47,073 bases of DNA from Gammaproteobacteria bacterium (GTDB lineage Bacteria; Pseudomonadota; Gammaproteobacteria; SZUA-140). A model generated the notes under the pieces. That model did not search any database. It had not been told where the DNA came from and worked only from the letters and a program-made list of their open reading frames with translations. Numbering within the stretch: the first letter of the stretch is position 1; each line of letters begins with the position of its first letter. The position numbers and the translations under genes are program-made. This document shows positions 2,197 to 41,865 of the stretch, one piece after another. The stretch lies in contig QIGV01000083.1 of assembly GCA_003230085.1 (NCBI GenBank), positions 1-47,073 on the forward strand, given 5' to 3'.

Positions 2197-3053
2197 AATT
2201 ATTAATTATCAGCGGGTTATCCGGTGCAGGTAAGAGTATCGCACTACAGGCGCTTGAGGATCTCGAGTACTATTGTGTTGATAATCTGCCGCTCGGCCTA
2301 TTGCCGACTTTCGTCCAACAAATGCTCGCCGACACTGCACAACCGCCTGAACAAGATATTGCGGTAGGCATTGATGCACGTAATATCACCGATGAACTGC
2401 TTCATTTTGAAGAGACATTGAGCGTCTTGCGTGAAGAAGGTGTGGAATTCGAGGTAGTATTTCTGGATGCTGATGACGAAATCCTGCTGAAGCGTTTTAG
2501 TGAATCACGCCGTAAGCACCCCCTGACAAATGACCAGACAGCGCTGGCTGATGCCATCAAAATAGAGCGGAATCTGTTGAAATATGTCTCAGTAAATGCC
2601 GATTTATATCTGGATACAAGTCACCAAAATGTGCATGAATTAAGAGCCCTGATTCGTGAGCGGGTTGCACACAAGCCATCGTCAGAGTTGTCAATACAGT
2701 TTCTATCATTTGGCTATAAAAATGGTATACCCGTTGATGCCGATTTTGTATTTGATGTTCGTTGTCTACCTAATCCTTACTGGAAACCTGAATTGAGAGC
2801 GTTCAATGGTAAAGATGCCAAAGTGGTTGAATTTCTGGAGCAGGAGGCGGACGTAGTGCAGATGTATAAAGATATCAAGACATTTTTAGAACGCTGGCTT
2901 GTAAAATTTGTTGCGGATAATCGCAGTTATTTGAGTGTGGCAATTGGCTGTACAGGAGGCCAGCATCGTTCAGTCTATCTTGTAGAAAAATTGGCTGGAA
3001 AATTTAAAGACAATCATGACCATATACAGATTCGCCACCGGGATGTAACATGA
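2193..3053 (+). CDS. rapZ: RNase adapter / nucleotide-binding protein RapZ
   Basis: The 286-aa protein has an N-terminal P-loop, GLSGAGKS (residues 8-15), and the C-terminal signature GCTGGQHRSVYL, both diagnostic of RapZ (YvcJ/YhbJ). In Escherichia coli RapZ presents GlmZ sRNA to RNase E and senses glucosamine-6-phosphate; in species lacking that sRNA the role is less clear. The gene overlaps hprK by 4 bp and overlaps the next gene by 4 bp, so the three are probably translated together. Length is normal (E. coli 284 aa). Confidence 0.95.
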   Translation: MKLLIISGLSGAGKSIALQALEDLEYYCVDNLPLGLLPTFVQQMLADTAQPPEQDIAVGIDARNITDELLHFEETLSVLREEGVEFEVVFLDADDEILLKRFSESRRKHPLTNDQTALADAIKIERNLLKYVSVNADLYLDTSHQNVHELRALIRERVAHKPSSELSIQFLSFGYKNGIPVDADFVFDVRCLPNPYWKPELRAFNGKDAKVVEFLEQEADVVQMYKDIKTFLERWLVKFVADNRSYLSVAIGCTGGQHRSVYLVEKLAGKFKDNHDHIQIRHRDVT

Positions 3054-3460
3054 CTGTTGGTTTGCTCATTGTCACGCATAATCTAATTGGATCGGAGTTG
3101 CTCAACACCGCGATCTCTATGTTGGGAAAATGTCCGGTGAATGCGGAAGTGATAGCAGTAACGATGGCATGTGATCCGGAAGAGGTGTTGCAGCAGGCAA
3201 AACAGAAAATCGAGTTGCTGGATCAGGGTGCCGGCGTCATCATCCTTACCGATATGTATGGATCCACTCCGGCAAACGTTACCAAACTGTTGCAACACGA
3301 TTCTACCCGCATCGATGTTATTACCGGGATAAATCTGCCTATGGTGGTGAGGTTGCTGAATTATTCCTCACTTGACCGAGCGCAAATGATTGAAAAGGCT
3401 CTTAGTGGTGGCCGCGAAGGTATTTTTGCCTGCAAAATTTTGGACGATGAAACAAGCTAG
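3050..3460 (+). CDS. PTS EIIA component, mannose family (regulatory)
   Basis: This 136-aa protein matches the EIIA-Man domain alone: it starts MTVGLLIVTHN, placing His10 at the phosphorylation site as in ManX, and has the ILTDMYGSTPANV segment typical of the family. No EIIB, EIIC or EIID gene is nearby, so it probably acts as a phosphorylation-dependent regulator rather than in mannose uptake. It overlaps rapZ by 4 bp. A 138-bp gap with no recognised element separates it from ptsH. Confidence 0.9.
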   Translation: MTVGLLIVTHNLIGSELLNTAISMLGKCPVNAEVIAVTMACDPEEVLQQAKQKIELLDQGAGVIILTDMYGSTPANVTKLLQHDSTRIDVITGINLPMVVRLLNYSSLDRAQMIEKALSGGREGIFACKILDDETS

Positions 3461-3598
3461 CCCTGGCACAGTTGCATTCAGAACTCCAGGGATTGTATGC
3501 GCCAAGGCTCAGTTTCCAAAAAGCCTGCTGGCGTATCTATCGGTCTGATCTCCCGACAGCTTACTGAATATGAGTTTATCAGGATTATTTAGTCAGAT

Positions 3599-3868
3599 AT
3601 GATTCGCAAGGAAATCGTTATCATCAACCGACTCGGGCTTCATGCCCGGGCCGCCGCCAAACTGGTTACATTGGCCTCTGAATTTAATAGCGACATTCAG
3701 CTGGAACGAGGCAAAAAACGGGTCAATGGCAAAAGCATCATGGGTGTGATGATGCTGGCAGCGGGGCAGGGATCAACTATCGGAGTAATTGTGGATGGCC
3801 CCGATGAGAAAGATGCAATAGACGGTATTGAAACTTTGATTCAACAGCGCTTTGGGGAAGACGAATAG
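3599..3868 (+). CDS. ptsH: Phosphocarrier protein HPr
   Basis: The 89-aa protein has RLGLHARAAAKLV with the EI-phosphorylated His15 and NGKSIMGVMML with the regulatory Ser46, the HprK target. HPr passes phosphate from EI to the EIIA proteins encoded upstream. The ribosome binding site is weak (an AGGATT about 10 bp upstream), but the start is fixed by homology (MIRKEIVIINRLGLHA). It is unusually separated from ptsI by a 270-bp inverted-repeat element. Confidence 0.95.
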   Translation: MIRKEIVIINRLGLHARAAAKLVTLASEFNSDIQLERGKKRVNGKSIMGVMMLAAGQGSTIGVIVDGPDEKDAIDGIETLIQQRFGEDE

Positions 3869-3928
3869 ACGCTATTTAACAGAGATTCCTGAAGGATATG
3901 AACCCACTATCTATATGCCGTCAGTTAA

Positions 3929-4198
3929 CTAGTGTAGTGTCCTATATTGTTTGGCGATTTCAGAGGCCCACAAATGACTCAATACAAGGCGCAGTCCGCA
4001 GTTAATGGTTGTTCCCTTAGCAAGGGCGGCAACGCAGTATTGAGTCATTTGTGGGCCTCCCTTCGGGCGCGGCGAGATGCCGTCACCTGCGGTGTTGCGT
4101 TCCTTGAAAAGGGCATGCCATTCCCTGCGGAACGCGCCTTGCAGCTAACGGCTTCTCGTCGCGCTGAAAACGTCAAACAATATAGGACACTACACTAG
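3929..4198. mobile_element. MITE-like element with 24-bp perfect terminal inverted repeats between ptsH and ptsI
   Basis: The ends at 3929-3952 and 4175-4198 are perfect reverse complements over 24 bp, beginning CTAGTGTAGTGTCC. Inside, a second perfect 23-bp inverted pair (3963-3985 and 4037-4059) and smaller hairpins make the element highly foldable. There is no transposase: the only long frame inside (84 codons) has no recognisable product. Both ends finish in CTAG, fitting insertion at a TA within CTAG as seen for IS630/Tc1-like elements, but the family assignment is inference. Transcripts from ptsH to ptsI must run through it. Confidence 0.85.
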
Positions 4199-4210
4199 AG
4201 AAAATAATCT

Positions 4211-5950
4211 ATGGGATTGGTCGTTAATGGTATTAGTGTTTCCAGAGGGATCGCCATCGGCAAGGCACACCTCCTTAAGCGCAATGAGCTGGAAATTACC
4301 AGGCATATAGTCCCCAAACTTCTGATCAACGAGGAAATTACACGTTTCAAGGTTGCCCTCAAAAAGGCCCGACGGCAATTAATAGCAATCCGGGACCGTA
4401 TTCCAAAGCATACCCCTGCCGATATTGCCGGGTTTATCAATGCACATCTGCTGATGCTTGAAGATGCTGTGCTCACTGAAGCACCTGCCGTCATTATCAG
4501 GGAGAAGCAGTGTAATGCAGAGTGGGCCTTGAAAACCCAATGTGAAACGCTAGTTAATGTTTTTGAGGAAATGAACGACCCATACCTGCGTACCAGGCAG
4601 GATGATATCAATTATGTGGTTGACCGAATCCTGCGTAATTTGATGGATGCCAATGATTATCCTGCGGGCAGAAAACACCATGAATTTAAGATGCGAATCG
4701 TTATCGCCGAGGATATTTCTCCGGCAGAAATCCTGATCATGTACCACGATGGTGTGGCGGGTTTAGTGACGCGTTACGGTGGCCCAAATTCCCATACTGC
4801 AATTCTGGCACGCAGTCTGGGAATTCCGGCAGTGGTGGGAGTGCCGCATATTCAGGATTTCATTCTTATGAATGAGATGGTGGTACTTGATGGGAAGCGT
4901 GGCATGATTATGGCGCTACCCATGCCTGTTGAGCTGAGTTTTTATCGTGGTCAACAGCGTGAGGAGAAACGCCGCTTACAGGTGCTAAAAGGGCTTAAGG
5001 AACTGCCATCCAGGACCCGTGATGGTGTTACCGTGCAACTCATGGCTAATGTAGAAATACCGGAAGATATCCCGATTATCAAAAAGGTAGCTGCTGCAGG
5101 TATTGGTCTATATCGAACAGAGATGTTGTTTCTCAATTGCAAAGAGCCTCCAGGTGAGGAAGAGCAGTTTCAGAACTATCGAAAAATTGTGCAGGCAATG
5201 AAGGGCGCGCCGGTCACTATCCGAACACTGGATCTGGGTGGCGATAAGCCACTGCAAGAGTCTCAGCGGCGCTATGTTGCTATGACTAATCCCGCGATGG
5301 GATTACGGGCGATACGCAGCTGTTTGAAAGAACCCGAAATTTTCATTGCCCAGATACGTGCCATCTTACGGTCCTCTGCCTACGGCCAGGTAAGGATGAT
5401 GATACCCATGCTCTCCACCCTGCAGGAATTAAGGCAGGTTTTGAGCCTGGTTGAAGAACAAAAGAAAAGGCTGCGCAATCAGCGCAAGTCGTTTGATGAG
5501 AACATGAAGATAGGCGGCATGATTGAGATACCGGCCGCTGCCATGACGGCCTATGCATTTGCTAAACGCCTGGATTTTCTCTCTCTCGGGACCAACGATC
5601 TGATCCAGTATTCCCTTGCAGTTGATAGACTTGATGAGGAAGTGAATTATCTCTACGACCCCCTTCATCCTGCAATTCTGAAATTAATCCGAATGACCAT
5701 CGTGGCTGGACAGAAAGCCGGTATTCCTGTGGCCATGTGTGGAGAGATGGCTGGAGATGCACGTTATACACGTTTGCTTTTGGGCATGGGCTTAAGAGAA
5801 TTCAGTGCCTATCCCGCTACGCTGCTGGAGATAAAAAGTATCATTAACGCTAGTCAAGTCACAACACTTGAAAAGCATACTAAAAAAATTCTGCGCGCTG
5901 AAACCCAGGAAGATATCATCACAATGGTTGAGACATTAAATGCGCTTTAG
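4211..5950 (+). CDS. ptsI: Phosphoenolpyruvate-protein phosphotransferase (PTS enzyme I)
   Basis: The 579-aa length is normal for EI. The phosphohistidine motif GGPNSHTAILARSLGIPAVVG places the active His at residue 195, and the PEP-binding domain shows IRTLDLGGDKP, LSLGTNDLIQYSLAVDR and VAMCGEMAGD with the catalytic Cys at about residue 510. EI uses PEP to phosphorylate HPr. The start lies only 12 bp beyond the inserted repeat element, so the native ribosome binding region may have been replaced; the AGAGAAAATAATCT before the ATG is a poor Shine-Dalgarno. The next gene, mgtE, begins 23 bp downstream. Confidence 0.96.
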   Translation: MGLVVNGISVSRGIAIGKAHLLKRNELEITRHIVPKLLINEEITRFKVALKKARRQLIAIRDRIPKHTPADIAGFINAHLLMLEDAVLTEAPAVIIREKQCNAEWALKTQCETLVNVFEEMNDPYLRTRQDDINYVVDRILRNLMDANDYPAGRKHHEFKMRIVIAEDISPAEILIMYHDGVAGLVTRYGGPNSHTAILARSLGIPAVVGVPHIQDFILMNEMVVLDGKRGMIMALPMPVELSFYRGQQREEKRRLQVLKGLKELPSRTRDGVTVQLMANVEIPEDIPIIKKVAAAGIGLYRTEMLFLNCKEPPGEEEQFQNYRKIVQAMKGAPVTIRTLDLGGDKPLQESQRRYVAMTNPAMGLRAIRSCLKEPEIFIAQIRAILRSSAYGQVRMMIPMLSTLQELRQVLSLVEEQKKRLRNQRKSFDENMKIGGMIEIPAAAMTAYAFAKRLDFLSLGTNDLIQYSLAVDRLDEEVNYLYDPLHPAILKLIRMTIVAGQKAGIPVAMCGEMAGDARYTRLLLGMGLREFSAYPATLLEIKSIINASQVTTLEKHTKKILRAETQEDIITMVETLNAL

Positions 5951-17362: not shown

Positions 17363-18151
17363 ATGCAATATGCAAAATCAGTTGTTATAGCGGTTGCCAT
17401 GATCATTGGAGTTGCGTTTACCGCAAGCAATGTAATGGCTTCGGCAGGGATGTATTCCAAGGGAACAGGCGATAAAGCTAACGGCGAAAGCATTTTCAAA
17501 AACGGTAAGGGTGATGTGCCGGCGTGTACCACCTGTCATGGTGAGAACGGTACCGGTAATGATGACTTAGGCACGCCGATGATTGCCGGTCAGTTTTACA
17601 GTTTTCTGTTCAAACAGTTGGAAGACTTCGCGGCAGACAAGCGTGAAGATACGACCATGTTTGTGATGAATGCCAATGCCAAAGGGTTATCCCAACAGGA
17701 CAAAAAGGATGTCGCTACCTATCTGGCTGCGTTGAGGCCTACTGACCTTGGGTCAGACCTTGCAGCGCTGAAGGAAGCGGGCACCGAAGTCGGGCTAGTC
17801 TACAAAGGACGTGCCCTGGTTGAGTATGGCAGTCCAGTCAGAGGTGATGGTTACGATGCACCCAAAGATCTGGGCAGTCCCGGCAAGGGTATTCCAGCCT
17901 GCAAATCCTGTCATGGTTATGCAGGACGGGGTGCACCACCGGTCTACCCGATGATTGGCCAGCAACGATATGTTTATCTGATTAGCCAGTTGAAGAAATG
18001 GCGTGATGGCAGCCGGGCAAATGATCCGATGGGTCAGATGCAGGCAGTAGCCCAGAGATTATCAGATGAGGACATCAACAATGTTGCTGCCTACCTGACG
18101 AATGCAAGCCCCTTATCGAACGGTAACTTCTTCAGACCCTATTCGCACTAG
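17363..18151 (+). CDS. Diheme cytochrome c4, periplasmic
   Basis: The 262-aa protein has an N-terminal signal peptide (hydrophobic residues 5-24, cleavage near VMASA) and two heme c sites, CTTCHGENGTG (Cys55, Cys58, His59) and CKSCHGYAGRG (Cys180, Cys183, His184), in two similar domains. The following AGQ, MIGQQRYVYL and MQAVAQRLSDEDI segments carry the likely Met ligands. Cytochromes c4 donate electrons to cbb3 oxidases in Neisseria, Vibrio and Pseudomonas, so this is a credible electron donor for the divergent oxidase encoded 7 kb downstream. A GC-rich hairpin with a short T-run follows. Confidence 0.93.
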   Translation: MQYAKSVVIAVAMIIGVAFTASNVMASAGMYSKGTGDKANGESIFKNGKGDVPACTTCHGENGTGNDDLGTPMIAGQFYSFLFKQLEDFAADKREDTTMFVMNANAKGLSQQDKKDVATYLAALRPTDLGSDLAALKEAGTEVGLVYKGRALVEYGSPVRGDGYDAPKDLGSPGKGIPACKSCHGYAGRGAPPVYPMIGQQRYVYLISQLKKWRDGSRANDPMGQMQAVAQRLSDEDINNVAAYLTNASPLSNGNFFRPYSH

Positions 18152-18388: not shown

Positions 18389-18982
18389 ATGAGTCTTAAG
18401 CAACCCCTGAAATCCGGTGAGAGAATCTTGTTTATCATCTTCGGTGTGTTTTTCGTGCTTGCGGCGATTGGTTATGTCGTCCTGGAGAGTATTCGTCTGA
18501 GCTCGGATGAGCCGATGTTTGAGCAAACAACATTCTTTGATTTTTCCGAGGACGGCTTGCTTGGCTCAACGATCTACCGGAAGGCCAATTGTAATGCCTG
18601 TCATCGCGCACTGCGATCAGGAACCAGCATGGGACTCTCGCTGGATGGGTTGGGATCAAAGTACTCAGCCGAGCGTATTGAGAATTTTTTACATGAGCCG
18701 CAGGAGTATTATCACGGTCCAACCATCGATCATGGTTATCCCCCCAAAGAGGCGGCATACGTGTCAAGAATGTCAGACGAGGACCTCCGTCTCATGGCCG
18801 TTTTTATTTCGGAACTCAAGGCAAATCCGGGCTCCTCAGTGGCCAAAATGCCGCCACCAGGCCGCTCAGAATTTATCGATGCGATGGTAGGTTCTTTTGC
18901 TCCGCAGGAATGGAAAGATAAATATAAGGATATCAGAGATAAACAGCCGGAGGAAAGTGTGCCGGAGACTGCTAATGAGTGA
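18389..18982 (+). CDS. Membrane-anchored monoheme cytochrome c
   Basis: The 197-aa protein has one N-terminal transmembrane anchor (about residues 13-33, FIIFGVFFVLAAIGYVVL) and a periplasmic heme c domain with CNACH (Cys68, Cys71, His72). Candidate Met ligands are Met128 (SRMSDEDL) and Met154. The SDEDLRLMAVFISELK helix is the usual C-terminal helix of class I cytochromes c. Its last 8 bp overlap the next gene, a four-helix b-type-like membrane protein, so the two are likely a pair passing electrons between a membrane heme and a periplasmic acceptor. It is similar in layout to the cytochrome at 29.1 kb. Confidence 0.88.
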   Translation: MSLKQPLKSGERILFIIFGVFFVLAAIGYVVLESIRLSSDEPMFEQTTFFDFSEDGLLGSTIYRKANCNACHRALRSGTSMGLSLDGLGSKYSAERIENFLHEPQEYYHGPTIDHGYPPKEAAYVSRMSDEDLRLMAVFISELKANPGSSVAKMPPPGRSEFIDAMVGSFAPQEWKDKYKDIRDKQPEESVPETANE

Positions 18983-19505
18983 GCCGTGGGAGCATGAGCG
19001 GGAACTGGAGTATCGCCGCTATACTCTCTGGTTCATCTATGCCTGCATCACGTACAGTATTATCGGGTTTACCTGGGGCGTACTGATGGGAGGGATTGCC
19101 GAGTTCCGCTATTTCGTGGATCATCGCATACATGGCAACCTGATTGTTCGGGCGCATACCCATATTAACCTATTGGGCTGGGTCGAGATGGCGATTTTCG
19201 CATCAGTCTATTATATCGTACCTCGTCTGATTAAAAGACCTATCTATAGTTTGCGCCTGGTCAAGGTCCACTTCTGGATTCATAATGTAGGTCTCGTTGG
19301 CATGGTGGTGTTTTTTACGCTTGCGGGTGTGGTTGGCGGTCTTTCAGGTCAGACCATGGCACTTGAGGAAGTCGAAAAGATGGTACGGCCGATACTCGCG
19401 ACGATGGGGATATTTGGCAGTCTGGTGTTATTGGCTAATTTCATCTGGGCATATAATCTATACCGGACCTGTAGAGGTTGGGAAAAAACCTATGAACAGT
19501 CTTAG
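18975..19505 (+). CDS. Four-helix heme-copper oxidase subunit I-like protein (mini-CcoN)
   Basis: The 176-aa protein has four membrane helices. Its middle reads VRAHTHINLLGWVEMAIF (His61, His63), then YIVPRLIKRPIYSLRLVKVHFW. This follows the C-terminal part of CcoN, where HVH ligates hemes b3 and b and is followed by a GALGWVG...YYLVP...YSLRL...HFW pattern. The CuB histidines (H in WxxHN, and the HH pair) and cross-linking Tyr are absent, so oxygen or NO reduction is not expected; at most one or two b hemes are bound. It overlaps the upstream cytochrome c gene by 8 bp. A second protein of this kind is encoded at 41.3-41.9 kb. Confidence 0.75.
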   Translation: MSEPWEHERELEYRRYTLWFIYACITYSIIGFTWGVLMGGIAEFRYFVDHRIHGNLIVRAHTHINLLGWVEMAIFASVYYIVPRLIKRPIYSLRLVKVHFWIHNVGLVGMVVFFTLAGVVGGLSGQTMALEEVEKMVRPILATMGIFGSLVLLANFIWAYNLYRTCRGWEKTYEQS

Positions 19506-24829: not shown

Positions 24830-26239
24830 ATGCTGTTTAAATATCTAACGGCGAAAAGCGAAGACATCCCACCAGGGACAGCAACAATCTACTTCGGTTT
24901 TTCGTCAATACTGTGGTTTGTTATAGGGACCGGCTTGGGTTCCTTCAATGCTGCCAAGCTCGCATTCCCGGATTTTGTAACGGGAACCGAGCTTTTTGCT
25001 TTTGGGCATATGCGGCAGGTTCATGTGCTTGCGGTGATTCTGGGCTGGATATCAATGGCCTTCGCAATGACCATGATGTATATGACGCCAGCGCTGGGTA
25101 ACACTAAGTTATGGTCGGAAAAGCTGGGCGTTTGGACGTGCTTGCTGTGGAATGTAGGCTTGTCGCTTGGCCTGTTCCTGCTTTGGTTGGGCATAACCTC
25201 CGGGCGTGAGTACTCAGATCTGATCTGGCCGATTGATCTAGTGATCGTGTTTGGTTTGCTTGTGCCTCTGGGTATCAATGTCTGGATGACCATCGCACAG
25301 CGCAAGACCCAAGGTATCTACATTACTAACTGGTTCTTTGGCGCGTGTATCTTTATGACTATCATTGTCTTTCTGGTAGGTAACTCGCCCGAGATGTTCA
25401 ATCTGACCGGTCTGACCGAGGGCTATCTGACCTTTTGGTTTGCGCATAATGTGCTGGGATTATGGATCACGCCAGTGGCGGCGGGTATCGCGTACTATAC
25501 GATCCCCAAGATTACAGGCAATCCGCTGTATTCTCACCGTATCGGCCATTTGCACTTCTGGGCGATTATTGCCTTCTACTCTACACCGGCTTCACATCAC
25601 TTGCTGTCTGCGCCGTTGCCGGAGTGGCTGAAGTCCTTTGCTTCAGTGGAAGGGGTATTGATCCTGATTCCTGCGGTTGCTTTCGTTGCTAATATCCTGC
25701 TGACCATTAAGGGTAGATGGAGCCTGTTTGTCGAGAATATCGAAACCAAATTCTCTATTACAGGTGTGCTACTGGCTATTCCTCTGAATATGCAGGGTGG
25801 CTTCCAGCAGACTCGCGCTATCAACTGGTATATCCACGGCACTGGCTGGATTGTAGCCCACGCCCATCTCGCTTTACTGGGTATGTCCAGCTTTCTTGAG
25901 ATCGCGGCGGTCTACTTCGGTTTGCAGCAGATGCTGAGGAGAAAACTCTACTCTCTGGCGCTAGCAAACTTCCATTACTGGTTCGTGATCATCGGCTTCT
26001 GTATCTACTGGATTTCGATGACGATTGCCGGCCTGATTCAGGGTGGTGGTAAGATCTACGAGGTACCATATATCGACGTGGTCATCGCAGAACATCCCTA
26101 CATGATCGCGCGCTGGGTCGGTGGCACGATGGTATTTACCGGTAACGTAGTCTGGTTATACAACATGTACATGACTGCAATTGAGGGCACCGCTGTACCC
26201 AAAGGCCGCTATGCACATGAAATGGCATACGAGAGATAA
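24830..26239 (+). CDS. Divergent cbb3-type (C-family) heme-copper oxidase catalytic subunit, CcoN-like
   Basis: The 469-aa, 12-helix protein aligns by eye almost residue for residue with Pseudomonas stutzeri CcoN. Present are the low-spin heme b ligand His65 (GHMRQVHVLAVILGW), CuB ligands His206 (FWFAHNVLGLW) and His256-His257 (ASHHLLSAPLPEW), the cross-linking Tyr250 six residues before the HH pair, and His344/His346 (IVAHAHLALLG) for hemes b3 and b. The Tyr and absence of a FeB glutamate set argue for an O2 reductase, not a NO reductase. Unusually, the conserved Glu323 of CcoN is Gln322 here (LNMQGGFQQ), next to a Trp-rich NWYIHGTGW. A strong AGGAGGG precedes the start. The operon encodes a CcoO-like partner but no CcoP. 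Confidence 0.93.
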   Translation: MLFKYLTAKSEDIPPGTATIYFGFSSILWFVIGTGLGSFNAAKLAFPDFVTGTELFAFGHMRQVHVLAVILGWISMAFAMTMMYMTPALGNTKLWSEKLGVWTCLLWNVGLSLGLFLLWLGITSGREYSDLIWPIDLVIVFGLLVPLGINVWMTIAQRKTQGIYITNWFFGACIFMTIIVFLVGNSPEMFNLTGLTEGYLTFWFAHNVLGLWITPVAAGIAYYTIPKITGNPLYSHRIGHLHFWAIIAFYSTPASHHLLSAPLPEWLKSFASVEGVLILIPAVAFVANILLTIKGRWSLFVENIETKFSITGVLLAIPLNMQGGFQQTRAINWYIHGTGWIVAHAHLALLGMSSFLEIAAVYFGLQQMLRRKLYSLALANFHYWFVIIGFCIYWISMTIAGLIQGGGKIYEVPYIDVVIAEHPYMIARWVGGTMVFTGNVVWLYNMYMTAIEGTAVPKGRYAHEMAYER

Positions 26240-26371: not shown

Positions 26372-27328
26372 GTGGCTTTTCAAAATTATAAGCTAGGATG
26401 TGCGGGTATTGGCGGGATGTTAGGTTTGTCGATGTCGATTACCTTGTTTTTTCCGAGTTTTGATTTCATTTCAGCGGAATCTACTTGGATAGGCCTGGAT
26501 AAGGCATTATCCAATGGGCGCACAATGGGATTTTCTTATGAAGACCCATTGGTGCTGGGTTGGGGCAAACCTTTAACGGTCATTCTGGACAAAGACCCGA
26601 AGACAGGCGAGGCGATTGATCCGCCGGTGCGTGCCTATGTCTACACACCGGGTACGCCGCTGGCATCACCGATTAACCACCCTAATAATCTTGGTCCTAC
26701 TGTAAAGAGCCTGGGTATTAGCAAGGGTATGATTGATCAGGCGAGCAAGGCTGAGGGTGCCGTATTTACCATCAGTTACGCGGATGTCGATGGTGAAGAA
26801 TGGGCCTATCCCGAGCTTGCCTCGGTAACTCGAGGATGGTCAGTCGATGCGACGCTGGCGACTGCAGGTGACGAAAATACCCGCTATGTAGGAAAGGGCA
26901 AGACTGTCTATACCACAGAACAGTGCTGGTGGTGTCATACCTTACTACCGGAGCATACCCAGGATTGGCAAGTATTTGGGTGGCCTCCTTATCAGGGCGA
27001 CATGAATGGTGAGATGCCAACCTCGTTTGGCTCTGACCGCAAGGCGCCGGATCTTCTTCATGTGGCATCCAGAAATTCTTCACGTGAATGGATGATGATG
27101 CACTTCTTCAACCCAAGGTTGGTTCAGCCAAACTCCATCATGCCCCGTTTTGACTATCTATGGGGCAAGAACGACGTTAATGGTGATCCCATTGACTATG
27201 CCAAGTGGCGCAAGGAGTATAATGCCTACCGCAAGGGTGAAGTCGCTTATCCACCAGAGGTACCAGAATATGGGCGGGATACTGAAATTCGCGCCTTGAT
27301 CGATTGGGTATTAACCAGCTTAAAATAA
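26372..27328 (+). CDS. CcoO-like membrane-anchored monoheme cytochrome c subunit, enlarged
   Basis: This 318-aa protein starts with GTG after AGGGGAGG. It has an N-terminal anchor helix (LGCAGIGGMLGLSMSITLFF), heme site CWWCH (Cys185, Cys188, His189) and downstream CcoO features: SDRKAPDLLHVASRNSSREW and FFNPRLVQPNSIMPRF with the axial Met257. Canonical CcoO is about 200 aa with the heme site near residue 70; here some 110 extra residues sit between the anchor and the heme (KPLTVILDKDPKTGEAIDPP, GEEWAYPELASV). It follows the catalytic subunit and is most likely its electron-entry subunit. Confidence 0.88.
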   Translation: MAFQNYKLGCAGIGGMLGLSMSITLFFPSFDFISAESTWIGLDKALSNGRTMGFSYEDPLVLGWGKPLTVILDKDPKTGEAIDPPVRAYVYTPGTPLASPINHPNNLGPTVKSLGISKGMIDQASKAEGAVFTISYADVDGEEWAYPELASVTRGWSVDATLATAGDENTRYVGKGKTVYTTEQCWWCHTLLPEHTQDWQVFGWPPYQGDMNGEMPTSFGSDRKAPDLLHVASRNSSREWMMMHFFNPRLVQPNSIMPRFDYLWGKNDVNGDPIDYAKWRKEYNAYRKGEVAYPPEVPEYGRDTEIRALIDWVLTSLK

Positions 27329-28871: not shown

Positions 28872-29159
28872 ATGAAACAGTTTGTTGAAAATCTGCCGGA
28901 TGGCTGGACTATATATTTATGGATAGTGGTCGCAGCAGGTATTCTTATCGCTGCAGTTTTTGGTCTGCGCTGGGCGGCAAAGAATGAGCAGTTTGATGAA
29001 GATATTAAATACGTTGTGTTTGATGAGGATGACAAGGATAAAATGGACGAGGATGAATTCAAAAAGATGCAGGAAGTCCATAAAGAACAGGAAGCGTTAA
29101 GGGAAAAATATCTTAAAGAGAAGGCTGAGAGACTCACAAAAAAATATGAGAAGCGGTGA
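28872..29159 (+). CDS. CcoS-like oxidase assembly protein with charged extension
   Basis: The 95-aa protein has one membrane helix (LWIVVAAGILIAAVFGL) followed by WAAKNEQFDEDIKYVVFDED. This matches the CcoS signature of a helix, then W-x(2-4)-QFDD...ILFDDD. CcoS is needed for cofactor insertion into CcoN. Here the protein continues with about 45 residues that are Lys/Glu-rich and probably helical, absent from ordinary CcoS (50-70 aa). It overlaps the next cytochrome gene by 14 bp. Confidence 0.75.
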   Translation: MKQFVENLPDGWTIYLWIVVAAGILIAAVFGLRWAAKNEQFDEDIKYVVFDEDDKDKMDEDEFKKMQEVHKEQEALREKYLKEKAERLTKKYEKR

Positions 29160-29628
29160 AAAGAATATCTATATCGTTATTGCTGTTCTGGTGATTGGCA
29201 TGATTTCTTATCGGGGATACCAGGAAATAACAGACCCGGACCTGGGCATCCCTTTTTATACCACGGCATCGCCCGAGCTGAAGCAAACTGCTGACAAGAT
29301 ATACAAAGACAATAAATGTTCGGATTGTCATTCACTATGGATGATCAGAAACATGATGGCGAGTGTACCAGCGCCGCCACTAGACGGAATAGGTGATATC
29401 AGGAACGAGCAATGGTTCTACGATTATTTGTCCTCAGAGAATCCTCAGACGATCTTGCCTACACGTTTGAATGCTACTTATAAGATGCCATCCTATGCTC
29501 ATCTTCCAGAACAGGACAGGCGTACTCTTGCAGCCTACCTGGCCAGTTTAAAGGTAGAAGACTGGTATCTTGAGGAAACAAAAAAAAGGGAATATGAAAA
29601 ATTAACTGGCAAGAAGTACCCTCAATAA
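29146..29628 (+). CDS. Membrane-anchored monoheme cytochrome c
   Basis: The 160-aa protein has an N-terminal anchor (IYIVIAVLVIGMISY) and one heme c site, CSDCH, at about residue 58. The later YKMPSYAHLPEQDRRTLAAYLASL holds the likely Met ligand (MPSYAHL) and the C-terminal helix. It could be a second electron-entry cytochrome, taking the place of CcoP, which is missing. It overlaps the CcoS-like gene upstream and ends 1 bp before the next start, so translation is probably coupled. Confidence 0.88.
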   Translation: MRSGEKNIYIVIAVLVIGMISYRGYQEITDPDLGIPFYTTASPELKQTADKIYKDNKCSDCHSLWMIRNMMASVPAPPLDGIGDIRNEQWFYDYLSSENPQTILPTRLNATYKMPSYAHLPEQDRRTLAAYLASLKVEDWYLEETKKREYEKLTGKKYPQ

Positions 29629-29629
29629 T

Positions 29630-30127
29630 ATGATCACGTTCAAAATTACCTGGGGAGATGTAGGAATAGGCACGGTCGCAGTACTGGCTGGTTCGCTAGT
29701 GATCTATTTGGGTGACATGATGCTGGGAGTGAACCTGGAGATGTTTTACGGAGTGTCTACCTATAGCCCGCTCTGGGTGGTAGATCTGTTCCTGGTGACA
29801 TTTGTGGGGGGGGTCGTTGTTTCACTGATATTTGGTCTGGGGGGAAAGCTTCTGGCGCATCTGGCGCCATTGCCGGTGCGCATCGCAAGCTATATTGAAA
29901 TCAATAACCTTCCAGAACCGCCAGAAATCGGTACGCTCTTGCCCGTAAGCTACTGGTTGCTCATACTAATTATGGCTATGGAATTCTCGGCTGTCGGCGG
30001 TGTTGTGGGCGAGATCCTGGTTAAAAAAACCTATGGCAGAACTGATAAGAGGCTGCTTCACAAGAAATACCAGAAAACGTCACAGAAATCCGAAACAGGT
30101 ACGACAGCTGCCAAGGATAACCAATGA
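29630..30127 (+). CDS. Membrane protein with three helices, unknown
   Basis: The 165-aa protein has hydrophobic segments at about residues 13-33 (GTVAVLAGSLVIYLGDMML), 48-72 (VVDLFLVTFVGGVVVSLIFGLGG) and 106-128 (YWLLILIMAMEFSAVGGVVGEIL), and a basic C-terminal tail. No known motif is seen. It lies between the cytochrome c and the SUMF1-like gene, overlapping the latter by 4 bp. It is probably part of the same complex; a scaffold role is only inference. Confidence 0.7.
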   Translation: MITFKITWGDVGIGTVAVLAGSLVIYLGDMMLGVNLEMFYGVSTYSPLWVVDLFLVTFVGGVVVSLIFGLGGKLLAHLAPLPVRIASYIEINNLPEPPEIGTLLPVSYWLLILIMAMEFSAVGGVVGEILVKKTYGRTDKRLLHKKYQKTSQKSETGTTAAKDNQ

Positions 30128-31188
30128 TGAGTTTTACATACTCACGAAAAATTACTGTTACAAAAGACCAGATTGCACAAAGACGGCGGTTTTTGGGGGC
30201 AACACTTGTCACCTGCATGGTCCTTTTGCTCATCGGTGGGACCATACATGTGATAACACTGGGAACGAACCGCATGAACGATATGCGCGGCAAGGTTGCT
30301 TATGATATCGACAAGCTCGATTCAAAATTGCGTGCAGCGGGTGAGGATCTGGTGCTTCAGTCAGACCACGAGCTAGGTGTCAGGCAGATAAATACCTACA
30401 CCGTTGCTGAGGCAAATGCGTTGCTTAGTCAGGAGCAGTGGGTTGAACTGGACAGTATGGTAGACATCCCTGCCGGGGTATTTATCGTGGGGACTGACTA
30501 CAGGCGTGCTGATGTTCAGGACCAACCCCAGCACAATGTTGAGCTGGGTGCCTACAGGATTGATAAATATCCGGTCACCAATGCACAGTTTGCGCGGTTT
30601 ATCGCTGCAACAGGCAGTCGGCCACCGATTCACTGGGAAAATGGTAAAATACCGTCGGGTCTTGAGCTACATCCAGTGACTATGGTGTCCTGGTACGATG
30701 CTTTGAATTACGCCAACTGGGCTGGAAAGCGCATGCCAACCGAGGCTGAGTGGGAAAGAGCCGCCAGAGGGACAGATGGGCGCCGCTGGCCCTGGGGTAA
30801 TTCGATGGATCCGCAACGGCTGAATACTTACTATCAAGTTGGTTCGACGACAAAGGTAGGCAGTTATCCGTCCGGCGCAAGTCCCGAGGGTGTGATGGAC
30901 CTGGCCGGAAATGTAAGTGAATGGGTTGCTAATGATTTCCTGCCCTATCCAGGGTCAGCTGCGCCGGACGAAATTTTCCAGGCTAAAATGCCGGAAGTGC
31001 CGGAATCCCCTGCGGAGAGATCGATGAAGTTAGTGGATTTTGTCAGCACCAGGGAAAAATATAAAATTCTACGGGGTGGTTCCTGGAAAAGCGATCCATT
31101 TTCGACTTCAGGCTATCATCGTAATTTCTCGTGGCCGAATTACGCTTCAAACTTTTTCGGGTTCAGAAGTGTGCAGGATGTTCAATAA
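30124..31188 (+). CDS. Membrane-anchored SUMF1/FGE-fold protein without catalytic cysteines
   Basis: The 354-aa protein has one N-terminal helix (FLGATLVTCMVLLLIGGTIHV) and then, after a ~80-aa spacer, a complete formylglycine-generating-enzyme-like domain: DKYPVTNAQFARFI, HPVTMVSWYDALNYANWAGKRMPTEAEWE-type core (about residues 183-215), GVMDLAGNVSEWV, ILRGGSW and FFGFRSV. In true FGE the segment after RGGSW carries two copper-binding Cys; here it reads KSDPFSTSGYHRNF, so no enzymatic oxidation of sulfatases is expected. The closest analogy by role is NirV beside copper nitrite reductase. It overlaps its neighbours by 4 and 11 bp. Confidence 0.88.
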   Translation: MMSFTYSRKITVTKDQIAQRRRFLGATLVTCMVLLLIGGTIHVITLGTNRMNDMRGKVAYDIDKLDSKLRAAGEDLVLQSDHELGVRQINTYTVAEANALLSQEQWVELDSMVDIPAGVFIVGTDYRRADVQDQPQHNVELGAYRIDKYPVTNAQFARFIAATGSRPPIHWENGKIPSGLELHPVTMVSWYDALNYANWAGKRMPTEAEWERAARGTDGRRWPWGNSMDPQRLNTYYQVGSTTKVGSYPSGASPEGVMDLAGNVSEWVANDFLPYPGSAAPDEIFQAKMPEVPESPAERSMKLVDFVSTREKYKILRGGSWKSDPFSTSGYHRNFSWPNYASNFFGFRSVQDVQ

Positions 31189-32128: not shown

Positions 32129-34756
32129 TTGGGAGTGGGCCTGATTTCTCGTAATCGCTGGATATGGATGCTGCTTGGCCTCTATTTTCTCTCTGGTATC
32201 GCAGGCGTAACCTATGAAGTCTTGTGGGTGCGAATGCTGTCAATTCTATTCGGTGCCAGCATATTCGGTATCATTATCACCCTGGCAGCCTTCATGTCTG
32301 GTCTGGGATTGGGAAGTTTTGCAGGGGTATGGATAGGACGAAAATTTTCTAATCCACTCATCTGTTTTGCTTTGCTTGAGGGCGCCGTTGCCCTGTTCGC
32401 ATTGATGATGCCCTGGCTGTTTGAGTCAGTCGACGCATTACTGGGCCAGATTGCTATCCATGAGTCCCTGTCCGTATGGTTTGCCTGGCAATCCGTAGTC
32501 GCTTTTACAATTCTTTTTATCCCCGCTCTGGCGTTGGGCATGGGTTTCCCATTAATCTTAAAGTGTTTTGAAAAGACATCGGTCAGCCTGGCAGTGATCT
32601 ATGGTCTGAATACCCTGGGCGGGGCTATCGGTGCACTGTTACCTTTGCTATTACTGCCCGCCCTGGGTTGGGCGTTATCCATACAAGTCATTGCCATGAT
32701 GGGCATATTGATAGCAATTGTGGCGTATGTGATTGCGGTGGTGGTAAGACCCGCTTACCATTCTGAGCTAGAAACGAAAATTTCATTCAGACCGGCATGG
32801 TCAGCACTGCTGTTGTATGCCGGGATCGGCGCAGCCGCCTTAATTCTCCAGCTTGGTTGGACCAGACTTTACGGGATGATATTGCTGCGCACGGAATACG
32901 TGCTCGCCATTATACTGTTCATCTTTCTGGTGGGCTTGGGAATGGGTAGCCTCCTGGCCAAGCGGATTCCGCCTTCCCTGGGTTTGGGTTGGTTTCCCTG
33001 TCTTGCCAGTCTATTTGCTGTGCTGAGCCTGTGGGGGTTGCCCGCATTGGCGGAGTGGGCGGACTACACTCAGTTCAATTCTTTAGGTGAGGCGATGACT
33101 TTTCAGGCGCTCGCACTGGCCCTGCTAACTTTGCCAACGACGCTGATTCTGGGCGCCTGGTTGCCACTGCTAAGTCATCATCTGGCCCGAGGTGATTCAC
33201 GAGCAGGCACCGCAACAGGCGCCTGGCTCTATGGCGCCAATTCAATTGGTGCAGCATTCGGTGTGCTCATTGCTGGTTTTTTACTAGTGCCCTATATGGG
33301 GACGACAGCAACCATCATTCTGGCCGCCCTCATACTTTTTGCTTGCGGCATGAAGTGGTCTGGTTTGCACTGGGGCTGGTTGTTTGCGCCACTGCTGGTT
33401 GCAATCGCATACCCTGTAGCGTCATTACCGCCGGTTAATCGCTTGCTGCCCAAGGCCCATGCCGATAGTCGGGACTTGTTTGTACAGGAGGACATCCTTT
33501 CTATTACGCATGTCGTCGAGCAGCCGGATGGTCAACGCCTGCTATTATCAGATCTACGGCGCATGGATGCCTCATCAGAGCCTACCGCTGTAGAGGTGCA
33601 AAAAAATCAGGCACGTCTGCCACTGTTGCTACATCCGCAGCCACGCACTGTCTTGTTTCTGGGATTGGGCACCGGTATCACGGCGGCCGGCTCACTAAAT
33701 TTCCCGGGGCTGTCAGCCGAGGCGGTGGAATTATCCGCTGGCGCTATTCTGGCAGCGGACAGGTTTTTTGCCCCTGTGAATGAAGGCGTTATGGACAAAA
33801 TTCGGGTGACTCATGATGACGCCCGACGTTTCCTGCGCGCAGGGGCAAAACGATATGATGTCATTGTCGGTGACCTCTTTCATCCGGACCTTGTCGGTCG
33901 CAGCAATCTACTTTCGGTGCAGCAATTCAGGCGGGCGTACCAGCGGCTCGAAGAAAATGGTCTATTTGTTCAATGGCTGGCACTGAACCAGTTTGACCTG
34001 CGTTCTCTTGAAACAGTGATGCGTAGTTTTAAACAAGTTTTTCCCCGCGCATCAATTTTTATAGATGGCTTTAGATTAGCAATGGTAGGTCCTCGTGAAG
34101 AACTGGCAGGTGCCCCTGCCATGTTAGGCAATCTGGATCGTATGCAGGCATCACAGCAGTCGGCTGCTACCGGGGGAGAAGGTGCCTGGACCTGGCTGGG
34201 AAGGTATTGGGGGCCGATGTGGGTTGGTGATGGGCCTGTTCAGGATGAGTGGGCGCCGCGAATAGAATTCAGCCTGCCTCAATTACACTATACCCAGGCA
34301 CATGATATGAGCTTATTGTTGAAACGCTTGCTTCAACAAAGGCCGCCCGTGGAAGAGGCAGGCAGGATGCTCAGAGTACCACTCAAGGATAAGGAAGCGT
34401 TTGAGCGTGCCTATATCGCATCTGAATTGGCTATGCGCAGTCTGGGCGCTGCGCTGAACGAGCAGTCGCTGGAAGCGCAGAAATTGATACGTTTTGCCTA
34501 TGATGCAAACCCAAAAGATCGCTGGGTCAGTTTTGATCTCGCGGACAAGTTGTTTGCTTCTCTGGCGCGGGTGACTGATAAAGGTTTTGACAGACGTGCT
34601 GCCTTGTTGAGGATACTATCAATCCGGCCGGATCATACCGCTGCGGTCAAAGCGTTGTGGCAACTCGAAATGGATGCCGGCAATCAAGAAAAGGCAGATG
34701 ATTATCGAATTTACTTGCGCGAGTTGAGTCCGCTGGACCGGCAGATCCCCGGGTAA
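32129..34756 (+). CDS. Fused polytopic membrane / spermidine synthase-like methyltransferase-fold protein
   Basis: This is an 875-aa protein with about 14 membrane helices over residues 10-440, arranged as two halves (GVTYEVLWVRMLSILFGAS is the family start), then a spermidine synthase-like Rossmann domain (TVLFLGLGTGITAAG, AVELSAGAI, VTHDDARRFLR, YDVIVGDLFHP, GLFVQWLALNQ), and a C-terminal helical region of about 130 residues, perhaps TPR-like. The acidic residue after the Gly loop (AVELS) fits substrate binding. True polyamine synthesis is doubtful for these membrane-fused forms. The start is a TTG or the GTG two codons later; both are weak. A terminator follows the stop by about 70 bp. Confidence 0.82.
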   Translation: MGVGLISRNRWIWMLLGLYFLSGIAGVTYEVLWVRMLSILFGASIFGIIITLAAFMSGLGLGSFAGVWIGRKFSNPLICFALLEGAVALFALMMPWLFESVDALLGQIAIHESLSVWFAWQSVVAFTILFIPALALGMGFPLILKCFEKTSVSLAVIYGLNTLGGAIGALLPLLLLPALGWALSIQVIAMMGILIAIVAYVIAVVVRPAYHSELETKISFRPAWSALLLYAGIGAAALILQLGWTRLYGMILLRTEYVLAIILFIFLVGLGMGSLLAKRIPPSLGLGWFPCLASLFAVLSLWGLPALAEWADYTQFNSLGEAMTFQALALALLTLPTTLILGAWLPLLSHHLARGDSRAGTATGAWLYGANSIGAAFGVLIAGFLLVPYMGTTATIILAALILFACGMKWSGLHWGWLFAPLLVAIAYPVASLPPVNRLLPKAHADSRDLFVQEDILSITHVVEQPDGQRLLLSDLRRMDASSEPTAVEVQKNQARLPLLLHPQPRTVLFLGLGTGITAAGSLNFPGLSAEAVELSAGAILAADRFFAPVNEGVMDKIRVTHDDARRFLRAGAKRYDVIVGDLFHPDLVGRSNLLSVQQFRRAYQRLEENGLFVQWLALNQFDLRSLETVMRSFKQVFPRASIFIDGFRLAMVGPREELAGAPAMLGNLDRMQASQQSAATGGEGAWTWLGRYWGPMWVGDGPVQDEWAPRIEFSLPQLHYTQAHDMSLLLKRLLQQRPPVEEAGRMLRVPLKDKEAFERAYIASELAMRSLGAALNEQSLEAQKLIRFAYDANPKDRWVSFDLADKLFASLARVTDKGFDRRAALLRILSIRPDHTAAVKALWQLEMDAGNQEKADDYRIYLRELSPLDRQIPG

Positions 34757-35978: not shown

Positions 35979-36404
35979 CTACGCGCTACCAGCGGTTTTT
36001 CTGTCGACCTTGTCTTTTTCCTGCTGTTCTTTCTTTTCTTCCTGGGCGACTCGATAATCCACCAGATAATAAATTACGGCAGCCATACTGGTCACCCAGG
36101 CCGCGCCGGCCGGAATCCCCCAATCAAACCAGGGCCGCTCAAATCCCGGGCGCACACCCCAGAAGGGGAAGGTGAGTCCGATAGCGACAAGCAGAAGGAT
36201 GATAAACAGCGCGAAGAACCAGTAGGGGATCTTGTGGTCCGATTTCTCGGACATGTATTCGACCATCTCCCAGTCTTCCAGGCCTCGTTTATCAAACCTG
36301 TCGCTTTCGTCTTTATAACCCAGGTTACCCTTGCGGTCTTCCCCCCATTGTACTTCTTCAATGGCGTCGACCAGTGGTTCTTTGCTTTCTTGTAAATCAG
36401 TCAT
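35979..36404 (-). CDS. Two-helix oxidase-associated protein, short paralogue
   Basis: The 141-aa protein has helices at about residues 62-80 (FFALFIILLLVAIGLTFPFWG) and 95-112 (AAWVTSMAAVIYYLVDY), with an acidic N-terminus and a Lys/Glu-rich tail. Motifs IPYWF, PFWGVRP and PWFDWG match the 217-aa protein of the oxidase core operon, but the ~110-aa middle segment is missing. It is 12 bp downstream of ccoG. This supports a shared job with the CcoG/FixH-like genes in oxidase biogenesis or structure. Confidence 0.72.
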   Translation of the reverse strand: MTDLQESKEPLVDAIEEVQWGEDRKGNLGYKDESDRFDKRGLEDWEMVEYMSEKSDHKIPYWFFALFIILLLVAIGLTFPFWGVRPGFERPWFDWGIPAGAAWVTSMAAVIYYLVDYRVAQEEKKEQQEKDKVDRKTAGSA

Positions 36405-36416
36405 GTCAATAACTCT

Positions 36417-37727
36417 CTAACGTACATAGTGTTGGAAATCATAATTGTCTTCCCAGCCATCCTGTGAAACAGCGGTAACCTTGATGGTATAAAGCCCACT
36501 GTCAAGCGCCTCATTGATGTGCAGGTTGAGATCCTTGCGAGTCGCGGTTTCAAAGGATATCTGGTCGGCTTCCAGTTGATACATCTCGTCGGAGATGCCA
36601 GATACCGAAAATTTTACAGTTGCCGGTTCATAACGTTTATTGGCGATATTGATGCGGTAATTCTGTATTCTATCACCATGCAGGATATCAGCGCGATACA
36701 CCGATATATGATAGGGATCATAACTGATCAGTCCCCATGTAAACATGCTGAATCCCACCACGAAGATCGGCAAGATCCAGGTAGCTCGGCTCTTGAATGA
36801 GGTCAGACTGACCCGACTCTTGATCTCCTCCTTATCTGTTCGTTTACCGAACTTGTAGTGCAGGAGCCCTTTGACATTGTATTTACTGTATAGGCTGTCG
36901 CAAGCCGAGATGCATTCTCCGCAATTGGTACAACTATCATAGGTTGCAGTGTTGCGCGGGTCTATATCCACGGGACAGACGGTTGTGCAAAAATTGCAGG
37001 TACTACATTCCTCCCCTCGCTGCGCATCATATTCGATGTGCAGGGTATCCCGGGTCTTGAAAAGGAATTGCCAGATGCGATAAATACACATGTAGCGGCA
37101 GACGTAATGTCTCACCACGGCAATGTTGGCAAATGCGATAAATACGAAAACGGTATATATCCAGTACAGGGAGCCCGCTAGTCTGGGGTCTTCCTGCAGG
37201 GTTATAAAGGACCACATAGCGCCGGGTGGGAAAAAATACAGCAATGGCAGCAGGGAGACAAGCATTGACATGCCAAGAATGTTTAAAAAAAGGAAAAACC
37301 AGTTTCTTATTTTGTCCTTACCGGAGGAGACATGCACGTTTGAATCATCATCGCCCCAATTGAGGAGGGCCTTTTTACCCAGTAACTTCGAGGTTGTTTT
37401 ATTGGCCCAGGTTGAAACAGTATTTTGCGGGCAAGCCCAGCCGCAGAATACTGTTCCCATGGATGAGTACAGGAGAATGAATGTGCTGGCGAGGGCAAGC
37501 CAGAAGCCAAAAACAATGAAAAAGTCAGAGAACCAGATCTGATAATTGAGGATGACAAAACCGGAAGCAAGGTCGATGCGGAAAAGTCCTGTCATTGGCA
37601 CCAGTACCAGCAGCGCCAGAAAACCTATCCGTGAAGCCTGACGTACCCACGAGAGTTTAGGCGCCTTTATCTCCTGAATGATCGGGATATCTTTGAATGT
37701 TGTATTGCTGCTCACTGAATCATCCAT
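36417..37727 (-). CDS. ccoG: Cytochrome c oxidase accessory protein CcoG (RdxA/FixG)
   Basis: The 436-aa protein has the standard layout: N-terminal helices with TVFCGWACPQNTVSTW, two 4Fe-4S ferredoxin motifs (CSTCNFCTTVCPVDIDP and CTNCGECISACDSLY), and a C-terminal Ig-like FixG domain. CcoG reduces Cu(II) to Cu(I) for cbb3 oxidase assembly. The start was taken at the ATG; a TTG one codon earlier is possible. It is divergent from the lipoprotein gene at 37955. Finding ccoG here supports a C-family oxidase as the product of the island. Confidence 0.95.
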   Translation of the reverse strand: MDDSVSSNTTFKDIPIIQEIKAPKLSWVRQASRIGFLALLVLVPMTGLFRIDLASGFVILNYQIWFSDFFIVFGFWLALASTFILLYSSMGTVFCGWACPQNTVSTWANKTTSKLLGKKALLNWGDDDSNVHVSSGKDKIRNWFFLFLNILGMSMLVSLLPLLYFFPPGAMWSFITLQEDPRLAGSLYWIYTVFVFIAFANIAVVRHYVCRYMCIYRIWQFLFKTRDTLHIEYDAQRGEECSTCNFCTTVCPVDIDPRNTATYDSCTNCGECISACDSLYSKYNVKGLLHYKFGKRTDKEEIKSRVSLTSFKSRATWILPIFVVGFSMFTWGLISYDPYHISVYRADILHGDRIQNYRINIANKRYEPATVKFSVSGISDEMYQLEADQISFETATRKDLNLHINEALDSGLYTIKVTAVSQDGWEDNYDFQHYVR

Positions 37728-37954
37728 CAATATGATTAATCCCGGTCTAATGTTGCGTCACAAACCTTTACTCGGGATTGGCCACGGTGTAAGTTATCTT
37801 CCAGACTGCTGACTGTTCTTAGAGCCAGCGGGGCTATACGCACTTACTTTGGGTGACCCTCTGAGATTATATCCCATGACGCACCCACGCGTTATAAAAT
37901 TTGGCCTGAAACCGTTTCTGAGGGGAAATTTTAACATTAATTTGGAGTTTAGTC

Positions 37955-40811: not shown

Positions 40812-41351
40812 TTAGTTACCTGCAGATTTCCCGGCGCCACGACGCTGTTGCAAACGTTTACTTAATCGGGGGCTTACCCGCCAGTGACGCAATAGCAGAA
40901 TTTTATCGCCTCCCCGTTCTTCGCAGCAAACTGGGCAGGTCAGGTGGCATAGATAGAGATCTTTGGGTATCCGCCCTTCCTCCATTAAGTCCATTTGCAT
41001 TCCCCTGACCGGGTTGCTGAGCATGCTGACATTGCCATGGTGCAGAAAAGCCCTGACCATATAAGGGCTTGGGAAATTATGGACATGGCGGGACATTGAT
41101 GGGGCGTCCTCCAGAAGTCTTGTGATGGAGCCGCGCAATACCCCCGAACGCGTCAATATCAGCCTGGGCCAGGGCTCTTTGAATTGCAGTGCATCAATAG
41201 CCGCCTGCTGGCGTTGCAGGTATATCTCATAAGCGAGTGGCATATGTATCAGCATGGGTATGGGCAGCGTGTGTATTCGGAAGCCACCAAGATCGATATC
41301 GGTATCATGCCAGTCGGGATACGCCGGCGGGCAACCGCAGTTAAGGGTCAT
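40812..41351 (-). CDS. Unknown Cys/His-containing soluble protein
   Basis: The 179-aa protein is not hydrophobic. It has an N-terminal CGCPPAYPDWHDTD and a C-terminal CHLTCPVCCEERGG; the seven cysteines and nearby His could bind a metal cluster or form disulfides. Between these lies FEPWPRLILTRSGVLRG-like sequence of no known family. Its first 11 bp overlap the end of the mini-CcoN gene, so the two proteins are probably made together. Confidence 0.65.
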   Translation of the reverse strand: MTLNCGCPPAYPDWHDTDIDLGGFRIHTLPIPMLIHMPLAYEIYLQRQQAAIDALQFKEPWPRLILTRSGVLRGSITRLLEDAPSMSRHVHNFPSPYMVRAFLHHGNVSMLSNPVRGMQMDLMEEGRIPKDLYLCHLTCPVCCEERGGDKILLLRHWRVSPRLSKRLQQRRGAGKSAGN

Positions 41352-41865
41352 GCTGTTGGGAAAATACTGCCTTGGCCGTCAGAAAAACATTGGTAAAAAA
41401 TACCCAGAATCCAACACCCATGATGGTCGAAACTGTGGCGATTATCGGTCCGTAATAGGCATGAAGCTGATCGGCTGCCAGCGAGTTGTCCAGCAACAGG
41501 TACTGACCTTCGCGGATTCCGAAATACAGCAAGGTTGAATAGAAACCAGTAATGCCGACGACGGTCCACCAGAAGGAATGATTGACCATGCGCTGGGAAT
41601 AAACCGGTTTTCCTGAAATTGCCTGAAATAGATAGTAGGTGACCGCCATACAAAGTAAAACAACGCCGCCGACGACATTGATATGGGCATGGGCCAGCGG
41701 GTCAATCATATGCCCGGGGCCGCCATAGGGGCTTCCAATAGAGTCCAGCCACGCACGCACGGGTGGCAAAATCTGGATGACACCGTGCACGGTTCCAATG
41801 AAGAAAAACAGCGGTGAGGCCACGAGATATTTCAGCAGGATGCGTTGGTCTGGCAGTGATGACAT
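41341..41865 (-). CDS. Four-helix heme-copper oxidase subunit I-like protein (mini-CcoN), second copy
   Basis: The 174-aa protein has four membrane helices. The first contains His27 (FFIGTVHGVIQIL), and the second begins DPLAHAHINVVGGVVLL with His59 and His61, the HxHxN pattern of heme-copper subunit I. KPVYSQRMVNHSFWW follows, matching the YSLRL...HFW part of CcoN. CuB ligands and Tyr are missing. It is a diverged relative of the 176-aa protein at 19 kb, with a different N-terminus. A terminator separates it from the dynamin-like gene. Confidence 0.75.
   Translation of the reverse strand: MSSLPDQRILLKYLVASPLFFFIGTVHGVIQILPPVRAWLDSIGSPYGGPGHMIDPLAHAHINVVGGVVLLCMAVTYYLFQAISGKPVYSQRMVNHSFWWTVVGITGFYSTLLYFGIREGQYLLLDNSLAADQLHAYYGPIIATVSTIMGVGFWVFFTNVFLTAKAVFSQQHDP

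Follow-up and report, generated by a model that had tools for sequence, protein, structure and literature searches.

The closest described relatives of the protein studied here are the catalytic subunits (CcoN) of canonical cbb3 oxidases, represented by the P. stutzeri structure 3mk7 and the equivalog family TIGR00780. A hydrogen bond linking the haem His ligand to a highly conserved Glu, cited without a residue number, has been put forward to explain the low haem b3 potential of cbb3 oxidases (PMC8398457), and their K-like proton pathway consists of a few polar residues leading to the cross-linked Tyr (PMC8780969). Ca. Tenderia electrophaga possesses a "complex IV-2", separate from its one canonical ccoNOPQ, whose expression ranks with the highest in the organism (PMC5371394), and Zetaproteobacteria and S. 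lithotrophicus are reported to have two phylogenetically distinct cbb3 forms (PMC7029218, PMC8788666). The reports on Tenderia complex IV-2 and on the cbb3 forms of Zetaproteobacteria and Gallionellaceae (PMC5371394, PMC7029218, PMC8788666, PMC10734462) cover organism groups that also carry the glutamine-type protein described below; in the accessible parts they deal with expression and phylogeny and make no mention of the residue change. NorB of the cNOR enzymes (3o0r, 4xyd) shares the overall fold and the haem ligands and lacks the cross-link Tyr.

The window (the whole stretch of DNA that was analysed, 47,073 nucleotides) is part of a 2.9 Mb MAG that is 81% complete. Its family is treated as Tenderiales on the basis of the literature and of a related biocathode MAG. 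The window carries a ccoN-like gene whose product has Gln where canonical CcoN has Glu. Close homologues are here 103 distinct sequences with 58-95% identity to the window protein. The gene and the codons discussed below are as follows.

24830..26239, + strand: ccoN-like catalytic subunit (haem-copper subunit I, 469 aa), from PF00115, the P. stutzeri CcoN match and model superposition
25535..25549, + strand: codons of His236, Gly239 and His240 (Tyr237, Ser240 and Ile241 in P. stutzeri CcoN, by alignment)
25577..25600, + strand: Tyr250 (cross-link Tyr position) to the CuB ligands His256-His257, conserved without exception in the canonical, distant Gln-type and close sequences
25775..25777, + strand: codon of Ala316 (Tyr317 in P. 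stutzeri CcoN), Ala in 103/103 close homologues
25793..25795, + strand: codon of Gln322 (CAG; Glu323 in P. stutzeri CcoN, by ungapped alignment), Gln in 103/103 close homologues
25859..25867, + strand: His344 and His346, ligands of haem b3 (proximal) and of haem b respectively; counterparts of P. stutzeri His345/His347 by alignment

Family membership and the metal site

The ccoN-like open reading frame has an ATG start with an AGGAGG-like ribosome site just before it. Its product belongs to the haem-copper superfamily, scoring 246.7 bits against PF00115 (cut-off 34.8) and carrying six His ligands. The top PDB matches are all cbb3 CcoN (E 4e-62 to 2e-42), P. stutzeri CcoN (3mk7) among them with 30% identity and a phmmer E of 4e-62. 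An AlphaFold2 model of the protein (pLDDT 85, pTM 0.88) superposes most closely on cbb3 CcoN (Z 47.5-48.7; 3mk7, Z 48.6 over 445 residues), compared with Z 40-42 for cNOR and about 36 or less for A-type oxidases. Membership of the C family (cbb3-like) is indicated by Tyr250 in 103/103 close homologues, by a PF02433 partner (54.5 bits) and by the presence of 3mk7 in the best superposition group. The protein falls outside the canonical CcoN equivalog, reaching 224.5 bits against the TIGR00780 (NCBIfam) cut-off of 583. The family of the gene is already present in published reports and is a variant of cbb3-like oxidases.

With canonical CcoN the protein shares the fold, the haem b/b3 and CuB ligands, the cross-link Tyr position and a FixO-type partner. 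The ligands His65, 206, 256, 257, 344 and 346 are all retained, together with Tyr250, which is the cross-link Tyr by position and for which the covalent bond is predicted. The CuB pair His256/257 corresponds to P. stutzeri 257/258 and the haem ligands His344/346 to 345/347; between the CuB pair and the haem His-x-His there are zero indels, with a spacing of 88 residues in either protein. Gln322 lies opposite Glu323 of 3mk7 in the ungapped phmmer alignment and in the multiple alignment of CcoN-like proteins. These alignments confirm the original prediction that Gln322 stands in place of Glu323 of CcoN and that the metal ligands, the Tyr250 position and the spacing to the haem ligands are as in P. 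stutzeri. Its description of an otherwise complete active site is correct as far as metal coordination and the cross-link Tyr are concerned; several positions that are invariant across canonical CcoN are changed.

A sequencing or alignment error behind Gln322 is ruled out by the invariance of this Gln in 103 distinct homologues from many assemblies and by the ungapped alignment.

Distribution of Gln and Glu at position 323

Besides the family of the window itself, Zetaproteobacteria and Burkholderiales host close homologues, the latter with a Ferrovaceae MAG among them. When 398 genomes of the phylum (Pseudomonadota) were sampled, the hits at E <= 1e-75 came from the window's genome and 41 genomes (three families); matching genomes are identified as Zetaproteobacteria by way of named loci such as L073-L079. 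A more distant set of CcoN-like proteins (Burkholderiales, Alphaproteobacteria and others) was drawn partly from genomes of this phylum and partly from plasmids of Paracoccus, Rhizobium, Paraburkholderia and Komagataeibacter. These proteins are about 27-34% identical to the window protein and share with it Gln323, all ligands and the cross-link Tyr position.

Position 323 is Gln in 103/103 close homologues and in 16/16 of the more distant proteins examined, whereas it is Glu in 32/32 canonical CcoN, P. stutzeri included. The question whether Gln marks a group is thereby answered by a complete Gln/Glu split, and none of the 32 ordinary CcoN sequences carries Gln. The residue was originally read as a single substitution within a CcoN; it is instead shared, without exception, by an entire non-canonical assemblage. 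Thus the interpretation given at the time stands as regards a Gln group and a plausible effect on the b3 potential, and falls as regards a lone substitution. A quirk of one protein is likewise ruled out, Gln being present in all close and distant Gln-type sequences. Several Zetaproteobacteria have one Gln-type and one Glu-type copy each.

Among the outgroups, position 323 is occupied by Trp in two cNOR (3o0r and 4xyd), by Gly in a Legionella NOR-like protein and by Ser or Thr in A-type oxidases, the Haloarcula row being unaligned there. Because the NOR proteins have Trp or Gly and the A-type oxidases Ser or Thr, Glu would be a special trait of canonical cbb3. Within the sample Glu323 appears restricted to canonical CcoN, and Gln is probably the normal state of non-canonical CcoN-like proteins, with no recent loss. 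The Glu partner of the haem b3 His would then be, in this sample, a property of canonical CcoN and not of all cbb3-like oxidases, and LNxQGxF may serve as a sequence marker for the Gln-type oxidase clade.

Some distant Gln-type proteins have features of their own. An N-terminal extension, CcoS-like by eye, is present in L143:3516-5207, L178:2425-4116 and L125:1548-3206. The protein of L174 (Rhizobium sp. CC1099 plasmid, match 3001-4338) combines Gln at 323 with the His202/Gly203/Tyr208 signature described for Nitrospina gracilis cbb3 subunit I (PMC3578206); it is likened to the Nitrospina-type subunit I through this published signature, and that type has other residues around CuB.

Phylogeny

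A tree was calculated with IQ-TREE, with the position-323 column and the Tyr317/Ser240 columns excluded. The canonical (Glu) rows and the window's clade are each recovered as monophyletic with 100/100 support, and the tree shows a single Q/E change. The distant Gln rows are monophyletic in 26% of bootstrap trees, their placement is partly unresolved, and they may not form one clade. When the tree is rooted with NorB/CtaD, Gln is at the base and the Gln rows are paraphyletic; the direction of the Q/E change is only a lean, because these outgroup branches are very long and the root is unsure.

Replacement of Tyr317 and Ser240

Further residues that are invariant in canonical CcoN are changed in the window protein: Tyr317 to Ala316, Ser240 to Gly239, Tyr237 to His236, Trp253 to Thr252, Thr321 to Asn320 and Glu125 to Asp130. 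Ala316, His236 and His240 are each found in 103/103 close homologues and Gly239 in 102/103, and canonical CcoN has Y, S and I/V at the sites of His236, Gly239 and His240. The window's clade has also gained Glu274 (102/103 close homologues) and retains the equivalents of Tyr223, Asn289 and Thr293. We take Tyr317 and Ser240 to be residues of the single K-like proton pathway of cbb3. At these two positions the clade does not conform to canonical CcoN, with Ala in 103/103 and Gly in 102/103.

Tyr317 is kept in 32/32 canonical and 16/16 distant Gln-type sequences, and Ser240 in 15/16 of the latter, so that the distant set, unlike the window protein, has both residues with one exception. Because the distant Gln-type proteins keep both, the paired loss is specific within the sample to the clade of iron and electrode oxidisers. 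An altered proton route is probable, since the window's clade alone in the Gln assemblage has replaced Tyr317 and Ser240. The fixed loss of these residues, which was absent from the original prediction, is a larger departure than the Gln. An open literature search on Glu323, Tyr317 and Ser240 of cbb3 found no paper. In one clade of the sample the polar proton-input Tyr and Ser thus seem dispensable, and a natural enzyme without the Glu, the Tyr and the Ser offers a test of what O2 reduction and pumping need.

Gene cluster

The ccoN-like gene lies in a cluster with the following genes.

17363..18151, + strand: di-haem cytochrome c (CTTCH, CKSCH), candidate electron donor; two PF00034 domains, in 34/61 loci
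18389..18982, + strand: mono-haem cytochrome c (CNACH), conserved upstream gene, also in Zetaproteobacteria; PF00034, in 42/61 loci
18975..19505, + strand: half-length COX1-like protein, conserved upstream of ccoN by gene order; PF00115 profile positions 303-415 only
26372..27328, + strand: ccoO-like subunit with one CWWCH haem motif and a long extra domain before the FixO part; PF02433, 54.5 bits
27344..27997, + strand: membrane protein of 217 aa with no haem motif, encoded by the third cluster gene and conserved in the loci
29146..29628, + strand: membrane-anchored mono-haem cytochrome c (CSDCH); PF00034, 30.2 bits

Downstream of ccoN the order is CcoO-like protein, 217-aa protein, small membrane protein, mono-haem cytochrome c, FGE-domain protein and others. 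Over 61 loci, ccoN is present in 61, the ccoO-like gene in 60 and the 217-aa gene in 56. The cluster (ccoN, ccoO-like gene and c-type cytochromes) is conserved in Tenderiales and Burkholderiales, where the orthologue of the CSDCH cytochrome c is clear, and occurs in a shorter form in Zetaproteobacteria; the downstream half was not found in the Zetaproteobacteria stretches examined. The CcoO-like protein scores over the PF02433 cut-off and under that of NCBIfam ccoO. The 217-aa protein, which has no Pfam match and no CxxCH, is possibly an additional subunit. In contrast to canonical cbb3, no CcoP-type di-haem subunit was seen among the window cluster proteins scanned: no FixP_N domain scored over cut-off in these ten proteins, and the membrane-anchored cytochromes of the cluster are mono-haem. 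Complex IV-2 of Ca. Tenderia electrophaga is a candidate counterpart of the window cluster.

Proposed function and alternatives

In our view, the ccoN-like gene probably specifies the catalytic subunit (subunit I) of a C-family-like cytochrome c:O2 oxidoreductase, divergent and without CcoP, in iron- or electrode-oxidising Proteobacteria. Ten family genomes are at least 90% complete; eight of these encode no other full-length PF00115 protein and lack cytochrome bd subunit I, which makes the ccoN-like protein the best terminal-oxidase candidate. It is likely the sole terminal oxidase of many relatives, although MAG incompleteness weakens this argument. These eight near-complete genomes, with no other full-length haem-copper or bd oxidase, also speak against an NO reductase derived from the C family, a reading that we regard as quite improbable. 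Such an activity would fit the position of cNOR as second-best structural neighbour group (Z 42), and nitrogen oxide reduction is possible for C-family enzymes (PMC8780969). However, the cross-link Tyr position, at which NorB has no Tyr, holds Tyr in 103/103 close homologues. Genes resembling copper nitrite reductase (NirK) occur in about half of 20 family genomes, every match being below the family cut-off, yet G003, G012 and G014 (91-99% complete) all carry the Gln-type gene and have no NirK-like match. Matches to cd1 nitrite reductase (NirS) in the family are partial and mostly weak, several lie inside very large frames, and none is convincing. In distant Gln-type operons with identified neighbours (L186 and the Paraburkholderia plasmid L169), ccoO and mono-haem cytochrome c genes are present; one distant Gln-type operon has a P-type ATPase gene. 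O2 reduction is favoured over NO reduction because the Tyr is retained, the gene stands alone in the sole-oxidase genomes, the Nir evidence is weak and the distant operons are cco-like.

Retention of every catalytic ligand would also be expected of an ordinary cbb3 oxidase in which neither Gln nor the other changes affect function, their roles being taken over by water or nearby residues. The distant Gln-type proteins point the same way: because they keep Tyr317 and Ser240 and lie in cco-like operons where examined, a Gln by itself would probably still allow the oxidase to function. Neutrality of all the changes is nevertheless unlikely in our view: Gln, Ala316, Gly239, His236 and His240 each occur in 102 or 103 of the 103 diverse homologues, a fixation suggestive of selection rather than drift, and the ccoN equivalog score (224.5 against 583 bits) argues in the same direction. 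Least probable of all, and very much so, is a non-respiratory haem-copper paralogue acting as an O2 sensor, electron valve or reverse-flow enzyme. Loss of the presumed K-pathway residues could be tolerated under slow turnover, but in most near-complete relatives the protein is the sole full-length haem-copper subunit. If it equals Tenderia complex IV-2, it is moreover among the most expressed genes (PMC5371394).

What the analysis establishes directly is the sequence, alignment, distribution, phylogeny, gene order and modelled fold; that the enzyme reduces O2, how electrons reach it, the shift in potential and the change of proton path are inferred. Electrons would enter from periplasmic c-type cytochromes, be relayed by the CcoO-like mono-haem subunit to haem b, and continue to haem b3/CuB with the cross-linked Tyr, the predicted site of O2 reduction. 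Gln322 would sit at the site of the canonical Glu that hydrogen-bonds the haem b3 proximal His; the unnumbered, highly conserved Glu of the published rationale is presumably Glu323. With a neutral Gln, the proximal His would have less imidazolate character and haem b3 a higher potential, an effect that is plausible by transfer from canonical cbb3. A raised potential would suit an oxidase fed by high-potential electrons, and protons would enter by an altered route with the new His236 and His240 nearby. We suggest only tentatively, with the balance somewhat against it, that this oxidase lineage combines re-routed proton input and a high-potential haem b3 as an adaptation to high-potential donors. 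The Gln-type enzyme would then tie oxidase tuning to Fe(II) or cathode oxidation. No Gln-type enzyme with measured properties was found in the literature searched.

Other genes in and near the cluster

The half-length COX1-like gene upstream of ccoN (18975-19505, + strand) has a counterpart at 41341-41865 (- strand); each encodes about 175 aa and matches PF00115 at positions of about 303-415 only. Two such genes are present in most family genomes, and the one conserved upstream of ccoN has an AHTHINLLGW-like motif. The FGE-sulfatase-domain protein inside the oxidase cluster (30124-31188, + strand) is membrane-anchored and found in 49/61 loci. Just downstream of the cluster, an 875-aa membrane protein (32129-34756, + strand; 43/61 loci) resembles a spermidine synthase fusion by eye. 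A CcoG-like protein is encoded at 36417-37730 (- strand), scoring 126.6 bits against a family cut-off of 316.7, and a small membrane protein at 35979-36404 adjoins its gene.
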